54,605 nucleotides of DNA from the NCBI GenBank assembly GCA_026981975.1, contig JALSHV010000024.1, forward strand, positions 1 to 54,605. The letters run 5' to 3'. Shown here one piece after another: positions 30,583 to 39,407 of this stretch. This DNA is from Aquificaceae bacterium (GTDB lineage Bacteria > Aquificota > Aquificia > Aquificales > Aquificaceae). Under the pieces are notes generated by a model. That model made no database searches. It worked only from the letters and a program-made list of their open reading frames with translations, and had not been told where the DNA came from. Position 1 is the stretch's first letter, and the number at the start of each line of letters is the position of its first letter. Both the position numbers and the translations under genes were made by a program.

Positions 30583-30650
30583 GAGGACACCTTAGTGCCG
30601 CCTGCCGGGTTTTGGGTGTCCTTCAAAAGGCGGGGTATAAGTAACCCGGT
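30583..30650 (+). promoter_or_regulatory. Copy A of a conserved pseudoknot-type RNA element (5' UTR of cytochrome P460)
   Basis: GGACACC (30585-30591) pairs with GGTGTCC (30615-30621). Its loop holds CCGCC (30598-30602) and CCGGGT (30605-30610). Downstream lie GGCGG (30629-30633), complementary to CCGCC, and ACCCGG (30644-30649), complementary to CCGGGT, so two mutually exclusive loop pairings are possible. The segments GCCGCCTGCCGGGT and GGCGGGGTATAAGTA recur almost unchanged on the opposite strand at 39101-39168 before iscA, with the outer helix sequence inverted. A hairpin and T-run follow. Reads as a cis-regulatory RNA or riboswitch; class not recognised. Confidence 0.7.
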
Positions 30651-30674
30651 GCCCGTCTTTTCTGTCGGGCTTTT
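30651..30674 (+). terminator. Terminator-like hairpin after RNA copy A
   Basis: GCCCG (30651-30655) pairs with CGGGC (30666-30670) around a 10-nt loop, followed by TTTT then GGGG. The 5' arm directly follows the ACCCGGT arm of the RNA element, so the two folds could compete and give transcriptional attenuation. The T-run is short, so termination strength is uncertain. Confidence 0.45.
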
Positions 30675-30685
30675 GGGGAGCAGTC

Positions 30686-31156
30686 ATGGGAAGGGTTTTT
30701 GTATTTCTTTTAATAATTGGATTTGGCTTTACTTCTGATGTTCCTTTTCCGGAAAACTGGAAAAATATGAACTTTGTAGAAAAAGGTGTTATCCTTAGAG
30801 GAAATCCGCTCTACGGTATAGTTCCCGGTTTTCACAAAACCTTCATGAATGATACCGCTTATAAGCATTTCAAAAAACACTTTACCACTTTCAAGCAGAA
30901 AGGTTCTCCTCCTCCCTTTCCGAAAGGAGCGGAAGTTGTTTTTGTAAACTTTAAGGATAAGGAAGGCAAAGTTCCAAGAATCATTCTGATAATGTATAAA
31001 ACCGGCAAAGCGGAAGATGAAGGAGGTTGGAAATGGGAGGGTTTTCTAATGCCTGATAAGAAGAGAATAGTAAAAAATCCCGCCAAGGATTGTGCTAATT
31101 GTCACTACAAAGGGCAAAAGGACTGGGACGGTATATTTATCCCCCATGCTAAGTAA
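30686..31156 (+). CDS. Cytochrome P460-family c-type heme protein
   Basis: A 156-residue exported protein with an N-terminal signal segment ([19 protein letters not shown]) and one heme-c site, CANCHYKG, near the C-terminus. The central [20 protein letters not shown] and GGWKWEGF stretches match the cytochrome P460 fold, known for hydroxylamine or NO-linked chemistry in nitrifiers and methanotrophs; the role in this organism is unknown. An SD-like GGGGAG lies about 9 nt before the ATG. Expression is probably governed by the RNA element and hairpin just upstream. Confidence 0.85.
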
Positions 31157-35662: not shown

Positions 35663-36453
35663 AGATTTAGAACGTCAAACATAGAATACCAACCAACTGG
35701 TTTGTCTTTTATCCACTTGGCAGCTTCCACCGCTCCCTTTGCAAAAGTTCTGCGCGAGGTTGCCCTATGAGTTAACTCCAATCTTTCCCCTATACCTAAG
35801 AAGTAAACAGTGTGATCTCCTACTACATCTCCTCCCCTAAGGGCAAAAATGCCCAACTCCTTCTCTGATCTGGGAGATGTTCCCTTTCGGCAGTAAACTT
35901 TTTCTTTTATATTCGCTCTTTTCTCAATTATTTCTGCCAATCTTAAAGCGGTTCCGCTCGGAGCGTCCTTTTTAAATCTGTGGTGAATTTCAGTAATTTC
36001 CATATCAAAATCTCTGTCTTTCAGAACGTTTACAGCAATTTCTACCAGTTTAAAGAGTAAATTTACCCCTAAGCTCATGTTAGGAGAATAGAGAACAGGT
36101 GCTATACCTGCGCACTCCTTTATCTCTCCTAATTCCTCTTGTGTAAAGCCAGTTGTTCCTATAACTATAGGTTTTCTATCAAGAGCTGTAAGCTTGGCAT
36201 GTCCTACAGCTGCGGTAGTGTTGCCGGAAAATTCTACTACCACATCGCAATCGGAAAGAAGATCACTCAAATCCGCTGTAAGCGGTATGCCCTCAAGTTC
36301 TTTCTTATTCAAAGCAGAACCTAGGTCTTCTGAACTTATACAATCGGGATGTTCTACTCCTCCAACTACTTCTACATCGGGGTCTGACATAGCAACTTCT
36401 ACAATCTCTCTTCCCATACGCCCCAATGCACCGCAAATGACGATTTTTATCAT
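35659..36453 (-). CDS. dapB: 4-hydroxy-tetrahydrodipicolinate reductase
   Basis: NAD(P)H-dependent reductase of the lysine/diaminopimelate pathway, 264 residues. The nucleotide loop GALGRMGREI opens the protein; NMSLGVNLLFKL and the substrate/catalytic motif EIHHRFKKDAPSGTALRLAE are intact, as is GDHTVYFLGIGERLELTHRA. It sits between an 81-residue unknown protein and mutS2, each with a 4-nt overlap, in the iscA-to-truA operon. Confidence 0.96.
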   Translation of the reverse strand: MIKIVICGALGRMGREIVEVAMSDPDVEVVGGVEHPDCISSEDLGSALNKKELEGIPLTADLSDLLSDCDVVVEFSGNTTAAVGHAKLTALDRKPIVIGTTGFTQEELGEIKECAGIAPVLYSPNMSLGVNLLFKLVEIAVNVLKDRDFDMEITEIHHRFKKDAPSGTALRLAEIIEKRANIKEKVYCRKGTSPRSEKELGIFALRGGDVVGDHTVYFLGIGERLELTHRATSRRTFAKGAVEAAKWIKDKPVGWYSMFDVLNL

Positions 36454-36695
36454 TCTTCTTCTCCGAAGACTATTTCTTCAAGTTCGTTAACCGCTTCTTC
36501 AGCTTGATCCGGAGGAACTACTGAAGGATAAAGAGCTACCCTGACTCCTTCTGTGAAAAGATACTGAGCGAGCAAATCTTGGAGTTTTTCCAATTCCTCA
36601 GGGGTGAGATCGGTTCTTATACTTTCCTCAACAGATCTACTGGTAACAAAAAACCCAACCAGACTGAAGGGAACTGCAACATACTGCTCTTCCAT
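36450..36695 (-). CDS. Conserved-looking small acidic protein of unknown function
   Basis: An 81-residue soluble acidic protein with a hydrophobic N-terminal strand (VAVPFSLVGFFVTSRS) and a helical segment (TPEELEKLQDLLAQYLF), ending in a Glu-rich tail. I do not recognise the family. A strong SD (GAGGTGG) and a 4-nt overlap with dapB support a real gene. It lies 36 bp after speE. No motif indicates enzymatic activity. Confidence 0.7.
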   Translation of the reverse strand: MEEQYVAVPFSLVGFFVTSRSVEESIRTDLTPEELEKLQDLLAQYLFTEGVRVALYPSVVPPDQAEEAVNELEEIVFGEEE

Positions 36696-37574: not shown

Positions 37575-38314
37575 CTCAGCTCCTCATACACATTATACAG
37601 TCTGATAATTTCTTCCGCTGAAATCTGTTCCACTCTGAGAGAGGGATCTATACCCGCTTTTTTCAGTATGTTTTCCGGTATTTTCTTTTTTAACATTTTC
37701 CTTCTGGCACAAAAGAGGGTTGTGAGAAACTTCTTAAACTCCGGAATATTTAAAGCGGGAGCGTTATACTTTCTCCTTATTCTTATAAGTCCGGATTCAA
37801 CCTTAGGTTTAGGAGTAAAAAAGCGGGGAGGAATACTCATAAGATACTCGGTTTCATAAAAGGTATTAAGAAGCAGAGTTAACCAACTGACTTTACTTTT
37901 ACCTGCAAGTTTAAGAGCTACTTCTTTTTGAAGCATAAAAACTCCAAGGGTTATACAATCCTTATTTATAACTGTGTTTTCAACTATCAGAGAAGCTACG
38001 TTATAAGGTAAATTTCCTGTAACCTTTAATCTTTTTCCCAAGGAACAGAATCTAAAACGAGTTGCATCTGCTTGGATTACTTTCAATTTTTTATTCTTTA
38101 TAACTTTTAGTTTCTCCACCATTTGGGTATCAATTTCCAAAACGTAAAGCTTCTCCAAAGGATATTCTAAAAGTATCTTCGTTAAGTTTCCCGTTCCTCC
38201 GCCTATTTCTACCAAGATGTCATCTTCACTCAAGAGCAAGCTTTCCGCTATACGTCTCAGAACTCCCTGTGACAGCAAGAGATGCTGTCCTAATTCTTTT
38301 CTTAGTTTAAACAT
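37571..38314 (-). CDS. rsmA: 16S rRNA A1518/A1519 dimethyltransferase
   Basis: KsgA methyltransferase that dimethylates two adjacent adenines in the 16S rRNA 3' hairpin. The 247-residue protein has GQHLLLSQGVLRRIAESL, the SAM loop VEIGGGTGNLTKILL and the catalytic NLPYNVAS motif, plus FTPKPKVESGLIRI. It starts inside the preceding GGDEF-like gene (13-nt overlap) and runs into speE with a 4-nt overlap. Confidence 0.95.
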   Translation of the reverse strand: MFKLRKELGQHLLLSQGVLRRIAESLLLSEDDILVEIGGGTGNLTKILLEYPLEKLYVLEIDTQMVEKLKVIKNKKLKVIQADATRFRFCSLGKRLKVTGNLPYNVASLIVENTVINKDCITLGVFMLQKEVALKLAGKSKVSWLTLLLNTFYETEYLMSIPPRFFTPKPKVESGLIRIRRKYNAPALNIPEFKKFLTTLFCARRKMLKKKIPENILKKAGIDPSLRVEQISAEEIIRLYNVYEELR

Positions 38315-38730
38315 TTTGAAAGATCAAGATTAAACTGATTAAGAGCCTTTTTCTGTAGGTTTTCTATAAGCTCCTGAGCTGTCTGCCCTTCCTCCGGATA
38401 TACCACGAAGGCAAAATCTTTTAAATCTTTACCGATAAAATCCGCTAATCCTTCAAGTATATGAACAGCCCCCATTGCATCTGTTCCCGGTAGTAAAAGA
38501 AGGATAAAATTTTCTTCCGGAAATACAATATCGGACTCTCTGAGTGTATCCTTAAATACAGATACTAATTCAAAAGAACTGCCTCGTCTTGAAGGAACAA
38601 TAGCCAAAACTATGTTATCTATAGCGGGTATGTGTTCATCTAAGTTTAAAGCCCTTTTTATTCTCTCAAGTTCTTTTATTTCATGAATGAGGAAAGGCTT
38701 TAAGAGTTTTCCTTCCAGTATTTGAGCCAT
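38302..38730 (-). CDS. Degenerate GGDEF-like domain protein
   Basis: A 142-residue protein whose pattern SDIVFPEENFILLLLPGTDAM followed by FAFVVYPEEGQTAQELIENL matches the second half of GGDEF domains, but the GG(D/E)EF active loop reads PEENF and metal ligands are lost. It is thus unlikely to make c-di-GMP and may be a structural or binding relic. The ATG at 38730 is 2 bp after the iscA stop; a TTG at 38739 would overlap it. The assignment is from fold pattern only. Confidence 0.6.
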   Translation of the reverse strand: MAQILEGKLLKPFLIHEIKELERIKRALNLDEHIPAIDNIVLAIVPSRRGSSFELVSVFKDTLRESDIVFPEENFILLLLPGTDAMGAVHILEGLADFIGKDLKDFAFVVYPEEGQTAQELIENLQKKALNQFNLDLSKCLN

Positions 38731-38732
38731 AT

Positions 38733-39080
38733 CTAACAACTAAAGGAACTTCCGCAACCACAACCTCCTGAAGCATTGGGATTACGAATGGTAAAACCGC
38801 CTCCCATAAAATCTACAATGTAATCCAGTTCCGCACCGTTAATATAAGGCATGGAAAACTGATCTATAGCTATTTTTACTCCATTTTGTTCAAAGATGTA
38901 ATCTCCTTCCTCTGTGCTTTCTTCAAAGCCCATGGCGTATTGGAATCCAGAGCAACCACCGGGAACAACTCTTACTCTTAATATCGGATTTTCTATATTA
39001 TTCTCCTTGGCTATTCTCTTTATCTCTTCTACCGCTTTATCGGTGATTTTAAAAATCATGGCAACTTCTTGTTCTCTCAT
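38733..39080 (-). CDS. A-type iron-sulfur cluster assembly protein (IscA/ErpA/HesB)
   Basis: A 115-residue Fe-S carrier or scaffold. The three ligand cysteines are in GGCSGFQYAMG and GGCGCGSSF, the family hallmark, and the DFMGGGFTIRNPNA segment precedes the CGC motif. The start ATG at 39080 has GGAG about 9 nt upstream; MIFKITDK eight codons later is an alternative. It is the first gene of an eight-gene string ending at truA and is directly preceded by RNA element copy B. Which of IscA, ErpA or SufA it equals cannot be told. Confidence 0.95.
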   Translation of the reverse strand: MREQEVAMIFKITDKAVEEIKRIAKENNIENPILRVRVVPGGCSGFQYAMGFEESTEEGDYIFEQNGVKIAIDQFSMPYINGAELDYIVDFMGGGFTIRNPNASGGCGCGSSFSC

Positions 39081-39100
39081 AGCTTAACTCCTTTCTCCTA

Positions 39101-39168
39101 GCCGGGCTATTTATACCCCGCCCTGAAAAGGTGTCCAGATACCCGGCAGGCGGCTTTTGGACACCCGT
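39101..39168 (-). promoter_or_regulatory. Copy B of the conserved pseudoknot-type RNA element (5' UTR of iscA operon)
   Basis: Read on the reverse strand: GGTGTCC (39165-39159) pairs with GGACACC (39136-39130); the loop carries CCGCC (39153-39149) and GCCGGGT (39147-39141); downstream are GGCGG (39122-39118) and GCCCGGC (39107-39101), able to pair with them. Compared with copy A, three central pairs of the outer helix are inverted (A-T, C-G, A-T become T-A, G-C, T-A) while the loop and GGCGGGGTATAA are kept. TGTATTCT about 8 nt before the helix is a plausible extended -10. The iscA SD follows within 15 nt, so control of translation is possible. Confidence 0.7.
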
Positions 39169-39185
39169 TATTTAGAATACAGTCA

Positions 39186-39407
39186 TCAAGATAATCTCCT
39201 TATGATATAAGTCAAGGGAAGGAAAAAAATACCCGCTAAAAATCCTCCAAAGAAAGAGATAATCACCACCATTCCTACTGGAAGAGCGGGTGTTTTCACT
39301 CCACCGAAAAGCTTCAGTGAAACAGTTTGATCTGTGTTCATAATAAAGAAGTAAAAGGATATGCCAAAAACAATAAGAAAAAAAAGTAAGTACAGAAGAC
39401 TCTTCAT
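39186..39407 (-). CDS. LapA-domain (DUF1049) small membrane protein
   Basis: A 73-residue integral membrane protein with two helices, LLYLLFFLIVFGISFYFFIM and GMVVIISFFGGFLAGIFFLP, joined by NTDQTVSLKLFGG, the standard layout of the LapA/LapB-linked DUF1049 family. In E. coli LapA partners LapB in LPS regulation. It overlaps pdxA by 4 nt and ends the trpS-to-lapA operon. The alternative frame over the same bases is rejected. Confidence 0.8.
   Translation of the reverse strand: MKSLLYLLFFLIVFGISFYFFIMNTDQTVSLKLFGGVKTPALPVGMVVIISFFGGFLAGIFFLPLTYIIRRLS

Follow-up and report, generated by a model that had tools for sequence, protein, structure and literature searches.

What kind of element lies directly upstream of iscA in this Aquificaceae genome, and what might it do there? 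In the window, by which is meant the whole 54,605-nt stretch analysed, a gene assigned to the ErpA/IscA family (iscA/erpA; 38733-39080, minus strand) is followed by an unassigned 145-aa protein (38302-38739, minus strand), rsmA, speE, an unassigned 81-aa protein (36450-36695, minus strand), dapB, mutS2 and truA. An earlier inspection of the bare sequence (the sequence-only reading) gave this eight-gene order correctly, but described the second gene as GGDEF-like, for which Pfam and NCBIfam offer no support, since the 145-aa protein has zero matches in either. Ahead of iscA it had placed copy B of a putative aptamer RNA, with copy A elsewhere in the window. As judged from the sequence, the model match and pair counts, the whole core fold of copy B occupies positions 39101-39166 of the minus strand, reading GGGTGTCCAAAAGCCGCCTGCCGGGTATCTGGACACCTTTTCAGGGCGGGGTATAAATAGCCCGGC from G39166 to C39101; a covariance model scores it at 88.8 bits (39101-39167). 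Its 5' end lies 7 nt after TGTATTCT (39181-39174), close to the 8 nt or so that had been claimed, and its 3' end lies 6 nt before the iscA Shine-Dalgarno (SD) sequence AAAGGAG (39088-39094, minus strand), inside the 15 nt that had been proposed; the iscA ATG begins at 39080.

Upstream of copy B, a promoter-like TTGACT-16-TATCTT (39188-39215, minus strand) can be recognized by its match to consensus; part of it lies within the end of the reading frame upstream. TATTCT (39174-39179, minus strand), also a consensus match, would be the alternative -10 element. Across the family of related elements described below, an exact TATAAT is present in the 26 nt before the first helix (P1) in 19% of copies versus 1.9% of shuffled sequences, and near matches concentrate about 6-10 nt before P1. 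Because of this enrichment, P1 is probably where some of the mRNAs begin. Together with the promoter-like site, this family rule makes it likely that copy B is part of the iscA mRNA leader, and any control that it exerts would then be expected to reach all eight genes of the operon.

The fold itself consists of three mutually crossing helices. P1 (7-8 bp) pairs GGGUGUCC (39159-39166, minus strand) with GGACACCU (39129-39136, minus strand), and its loop encloses the 5' strands of P2 (CCGCC, 39149-39153) and P3 (GCCGGGU, 39141-39147), whose 3' strands (GGCGG, 39118-39122, and GCCCGGC, 39101-39107, respectively; all minus strand) come after P1, giving the order P1a P2a P3a P1b P2b P3b. Only 1 nt separates the 5' strands of P2 and P3, while their 3' strands are separated by GGUAUAAAUA (39108-39117, minus strand), which is near-invariant in the alignments. 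Such spacing would correspond to that of a classical H-type pseudoknot, in which the loop crossing the deep groove is short and the one crossing the shallow groove is A-rich. The "outer helix" of the sequence-only reading is therefore real and corresponds to P1, but it is only one helix of a three-helix pseudoknot. Comparison of the P1 strands of copy B (GGTGTCC/GGACACC) and copy A (GGACACC/GGTGTCC) also bears out the observation that exactly three central pairs are inverted.

That this pairing is under selection, as had been argued from the two copies, is seen across the family. Among 90 distinct copies, which are not statistically independent of one another, 99.1% of the cells belonging to the named pairs form standard pairs, compared with 84.1% in shuffles and 36-55% when slid; the covariation score is 0.421 versus 0.124; and cells changed on both sides number 224, compared with 46.9 in shuffles, a level reached in 0 of 500. 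All seven modelled pairs of P1 covary, with two-sided changes at every one; two-sided changes are present at one of the five P2 pairs and at three of the seven P3 pairs. P2 is paired in 100% of these copies, its outer pair being C-G in 78 and G-C in 12, and P3 is paired in 99.4% of cells, in an alignment fitted to P1 and not to P2 or P3. Thus, P2 and P3 covary and both cross P1, as is found in an H-type pseudoknot. Other copies retain the helices with different sequences: in a divergent copy that scores only 20.9 bits (L039:1501-1566) P2 has become GCGGG/CCCGC, and in copies of a Hydrogenothermaceae-like genome (G059) P3 has become GTTGGGG/CCCCAAC and GTCAGGG/CCCTGAC. Probably, as the divergent copy illustrates, still further-diverged members exist that the model misses.

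Copies of the approximately 66-nt core are not confined to the window. Searching the host genome at the DNA level found 15, and a covariance model built from these 15 found 18 with E<1e-14, plus weak matches; a family of this size is far beyond chance. The element is present in 44 of 61 genomes of relatives and in 70 of 118 Aquificota genomes, reaching its highest copy number, 35, in Thermocrinis albus HI 11/12 (G024). A scan of the genomes of 84,980 species with an exact pattern gave 75 stretches, nearly all from Aquificota, the others including Thermodesulfobacterium, Thermodesulfobacteriaceae, HR19, HR37 and one archaeal metagenome-assembled genome (MAG). The copy filed under this Archaeoglobaceae MAG (L141:2549-2616) probably belongs to a mis-binned bacterial contig rather than to an archaeon, and matches in a Clostridia MAG (L090) and an Opitutaceae MAG (L137) appear to have arisen by chance. 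Carriage by viruses was rejected, as 0 viral contigs contain the exact pattern. The probable A. aeolicus genome (G019) yielded no convincing copy. Within single genera the contrast can be extreme: T. albus has 35 copies and a single-contig congener (G031) none, and the genome of the window (G000) has 18 and a single-contig congener (G007) none, a pattern that suggests gain or loss of the system genome-wide.

A search of the window and the 15 element loci with the 4227 models of Rfam, at the gathering threshold, returned only a tRNA and an SRP RNA. The best relevant match below threshold, to the FMN riboswitch, reached 14.2 bits versus a gathering score of 66.2 and is best read as chance. The lack of a match to any Rfam ribozyme bears on the idea that the element is a self-cleaving ribozyme, which would trim mRNAs ahead of each gene. 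A small, dispersed RNA with several pseudoknots and no common downstream pathway would suit a ribozyme, and some copies do precede ribosomal-protein genes, but the order of the helices is unlike that of HDV, pistol or twister, and this explanation is very unlikely. Noncoding RNAs of Aquificales have been surveyed by structure prediction combined with dRNA-seq of A. aeolicus (Lechner et al. 2014, PMC4227106); the main text and Table 3 of that study do not describe the element, as far as they were searched. Nor does it appear in the main texts, as far as these were searched, of motif surveys of 26 genomes (PMC8632094), among them one of Aquificae and one of Thermodesulfobacteria, and 50 genomes (PMC11109978).

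Every copy that was read is oriented in the sense direction, and those to which a gene could be assigned lie upstream of its start codon, with median distances from P3 to the start codon of 35-48 nt, depending on the genome. In the genome of the window, the genes that follow encode IscA, LC7, L32, pyrophosphatase, FtsZ, a ThiS-family protein, Hfq, TatA, Era, a PALP enzyme, GYD, an M50 protease, S20 and others. In T. albus they include genes for translation and transcription (S11, S18, S20, S21, L25, L32, EF-Ts, IF3, RpoA, Rho and two Hfq) as well as pyrophosphatase, NDK, thioredoxin, SHMT, KARI, MetE, ThiG, FtsH, POR subunits and others. The two sets share five genes, compared with 0.5-0.9 expected. 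In neither genome do the downstream genes share a pathway or a transport function; most are housekeeping genes.

This collection of targets speaks to two ways in which the element might sense something. In the first, proposed in part by the sequence-only reading, it would be a riboswitch for a global small molecule, an aptamer with translational output. A compact pseudoknot with near-invariant joining strands, conserved as a domain within leaders, is what such an aptamer would look like, and in the extended form of the element described below, pairing that overlaps the SD is possible. However, the targets lack the pathway coherence that an aptamer for one ligand would lead one to expect, a single genus can span copy numbers of 0 to 35, no terminator platform is present, and copy B shows neither visible sequestration of the SD nor complementarity between a hairpin loop and CCAGG. 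We consider this reading rather unlikely. In the second, a global RNA-binding protein, either a ribosomal protein or one like Hfq, would bind the element and so control translation of a housekeeping regulon. Many of the targets are indeed translation genes, and Hfq itself is a target in three genera, but P1 varies freely, no candidate protein has emerged, and whole genomes that have Hfq are without the element; a protein site is thus also improbable, to a similar degree.

The sequence-only reading had further supposed that copy A is read out by transcriptional termination. The core fold of copy A (30584-30650, plus strand; 70.1 bits by the covariance model) is indeed followed directly by a hairpin (GCCCG...CGGGC, 30651-30670, plus strand), behind which lies a gene with a cytochrome P460 domain (30686-31156, plus strand). 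Family statistics, however, identify this "terminator-like" hairpin as an ordinary example of P4, a hairpin directly 3' of P3 whose sequences are non-homologous between copies. Of 151 copies, 141 are followed by P4 when judged by a threshold lenient enough for 39% of shuffles to pass it; TTTT comes next, within 8 nt, in only 3 of the 151. Since T-runs are so rare, P4 is no general terminator. Copy B lacks P4, and a search for an intrinsic terminator at copy B found none. The lack of a terminator and of a shared pathway together argue against a transcriptional riboswitch.

How the element came to precede iscA can be judged from relatives that lack it. In all 14 congeners read, the iscA leader is without the element, although the flanks of the empty site, GTAT... 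at the upstream end and AAAGGAG in the region of the SD, can both be recognized; by eye, about 17 nt separate these flanks, as they do here once the element is subtracted. The idea that the element is the ancestral head of the iscA operon is thus not supported, and copy B is best read as probably gained recently in this lineage. That the other species lost it would be a less economical, and less likely, account. The nearest relative of copy B is another copy in the same genome. The LC7 copy is 98% identical to copy B over the core, and the LC7 leader is empty in 16 congeners. Likewise, rpmF is without the element in all 28 relatives in which its start was found, and hfq bears it in the genome of the window, in both g8 genomes and in T. 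albus, while among the other relatives sampled hfq is without it.

In almost every case checked, a copy is closer to others in its own genome than to its counterpart before the same gene in a different genus; rpsT of the window's genome is an exception. In T. albus and in the window's genome, near-identical copies have only the core in common. In 31 near-identical pairs from T. albus, identity is about 1.0 within the core and drops to background as soon as P1 is left and, at the 3' edge, just after P3, except for the two opening Cs of P4. Such sharp edges, like the clustering by genome, could result either from direct copying or from gene conversion confined to the core. Because homogenization of older copies would mimic these signs, the argument for a portable unit depends on the empty sites, and for some copies these favour copying over conversion. 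In two genomes (G056 and G059) the stretch common to the copies is longer than the core. In G056, five copies (L184, L186, L188, L190 and L194, before leuC, a membrane-protein gene, adk, metE and guaB) are identical or near-identical for more than 50 nt upstream of P1, so a cassette longer than the core has been amplified in that genome, also near ribosomal-protein genes.

Dispersed near-identical copies, together with empty sites in relatives, are what is found with a mobile element. Thus, the core might be a selfish short repeat, similar to a MITE, that is tolerated in leaders and whose fold serves only its own spread. Its patchy presence and its bursts of near-identical copies would suit such a repeat, as would the empty sites in congeners. 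Spread alone would not account for the sense orientation, the placement just 5' of start codons, the compensatory changes in all the helices, or the use of the same genes in different genera beyond chance. In addition, inspection of the iscA site by eye reveals neither terminal inverted repeats nor a clear target duplication, and the ends of the element are the P1 and P3 strands, which pair internally. A purely selfish repeat is quite unlikely.

The explanation that fits best overall, and that on balance we think probable, is a single proposition: copy B belongs to an undescribed cis-acting leader-RNA family of Aquificota, and this RNA is a portable unit that acts on translation initiation or on the stability of the mRNA 5' end. 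Folded compactly at the 5' end of the nascent mRNA, it would set ribosome loading, shield that end, or both. A possible route to the ribosome is offered by the extended subtype, in which an extra 5' hairpin bears a loop (ACCTGG or CTTGG) complementary to a CCAGG that follows P4 near the start codon. The loop and the tail are both present in 32 copies, one without the other in 3 and 8, and neither in 110 (p=4e-22, for copies that are not independent). Pairing of this loop with the CCAGG tail, at the position where the ribosome binds, would be predicted to block initiation.

The close rival to this proposition is the stabilizer alone: a fold at the start of transcription that guards highly expressed mRNAs from 5' attack at high temperature and senses nothing. 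The TATAAT matches just before P1, the GC-rich compact fold and the housekeeping targets all suit it; the set of target genes also fits a stabilizer with no regulatory role, which counts against the best explanation. However, a clear adjacent promoter is present in a minority of copies only, and a stabilizer leaves unaccounted for both the hairpin loop able to pair at the ribosome-binding position and the finding that in T. albus the element is rarely followed by a strong SD. We regard it as a real, if doubtful, possibility and favour a role of the portable leader RNA in translation initiation.

The evidence from SD sequences themselves is mixed. In T. albus a strong SD is present behind only 1 of 34 elements, compared with 90 of 279 other cases, while a rank test across all SD strengths is not significant (p=0.22). 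At six genes the orthologues without the element have stronger SDs (in 14/14, 16/16, 7/7, 27/28, 11/11 and 13/13 cases); for iscA the SD duplex energy is -8.5, versus a median of -12.4 over the 14 congeners. However, SDs in the window's genome are weaker than those of its congeners at genes without the element too, and an unpaired comparison within this genome reveals no difference. Loss of the SD was thus rejected as proof of SD replacement, being confounded by this overall weakness, and the depletion of strong SDs is suggestive in T. albus only. A bolder idea is that the core is a portable module, copied between leaders with boundaries that coincide with those of the fold, and that it replaces the SD in recruiting the ribosome. 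It would then be the bacterial equivalent of an internal ribosome entry element, spread across a housekeeping regulon; this idea is speculative and unlikely.

In general architecture the element recalls several known leaders. Like the SAM-II and preQ1 riboswitches, it is a compact H-type pseudoknot in a short leader near the SD, and in each of them a short helix is crossed by an A-rich strand. Unlike them, it has a third crossing helix (P1), no Rfam match and no ligand pathway, its core ends upstream of the SD, and a single genome can have 18-35 copies of it before unrelated genes. The alpha-operon leader bound by S4 also places a pseudoknot near a start codon, where it is expected to affect translation initiation; ribosomal-protein leader pseudoknots are autoregulatory and serve one operon, however, whereas the element precedes dozens of unrelated genes. 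The 5' stabilizers of ompA and aprE likewise are stable structures located at the 5' end of the mRNA or close to it, but these are simple hairpins without conserved sequence, whereas here a whole phylum conserves both the sequence and the topology of the pseudoknot.

If the proposition is true, a phylum-wide family outside Rfam, reaching 35 copies in a genome of 1.5 Mb, would represent an RNA-linked regulon of unusual size for a hyperthermophile. Related species provide natural experiments, as iscA, hfq, rpmF, ppa and ftsZ are each found with and without the element, and the family raises the question of how a unit encoding a 66-nt RNA is copied between leaders. Its accessory parts vary as well: in the Hydrogenothermaceae-like genome (G059), P4 is enlarged by short repeats such as CACGTTGAACGTTTCACG in four copies (L193, L200, L202 and L205), and several other copies have lost the 5' hairpin yet retain the CCAGG tail.
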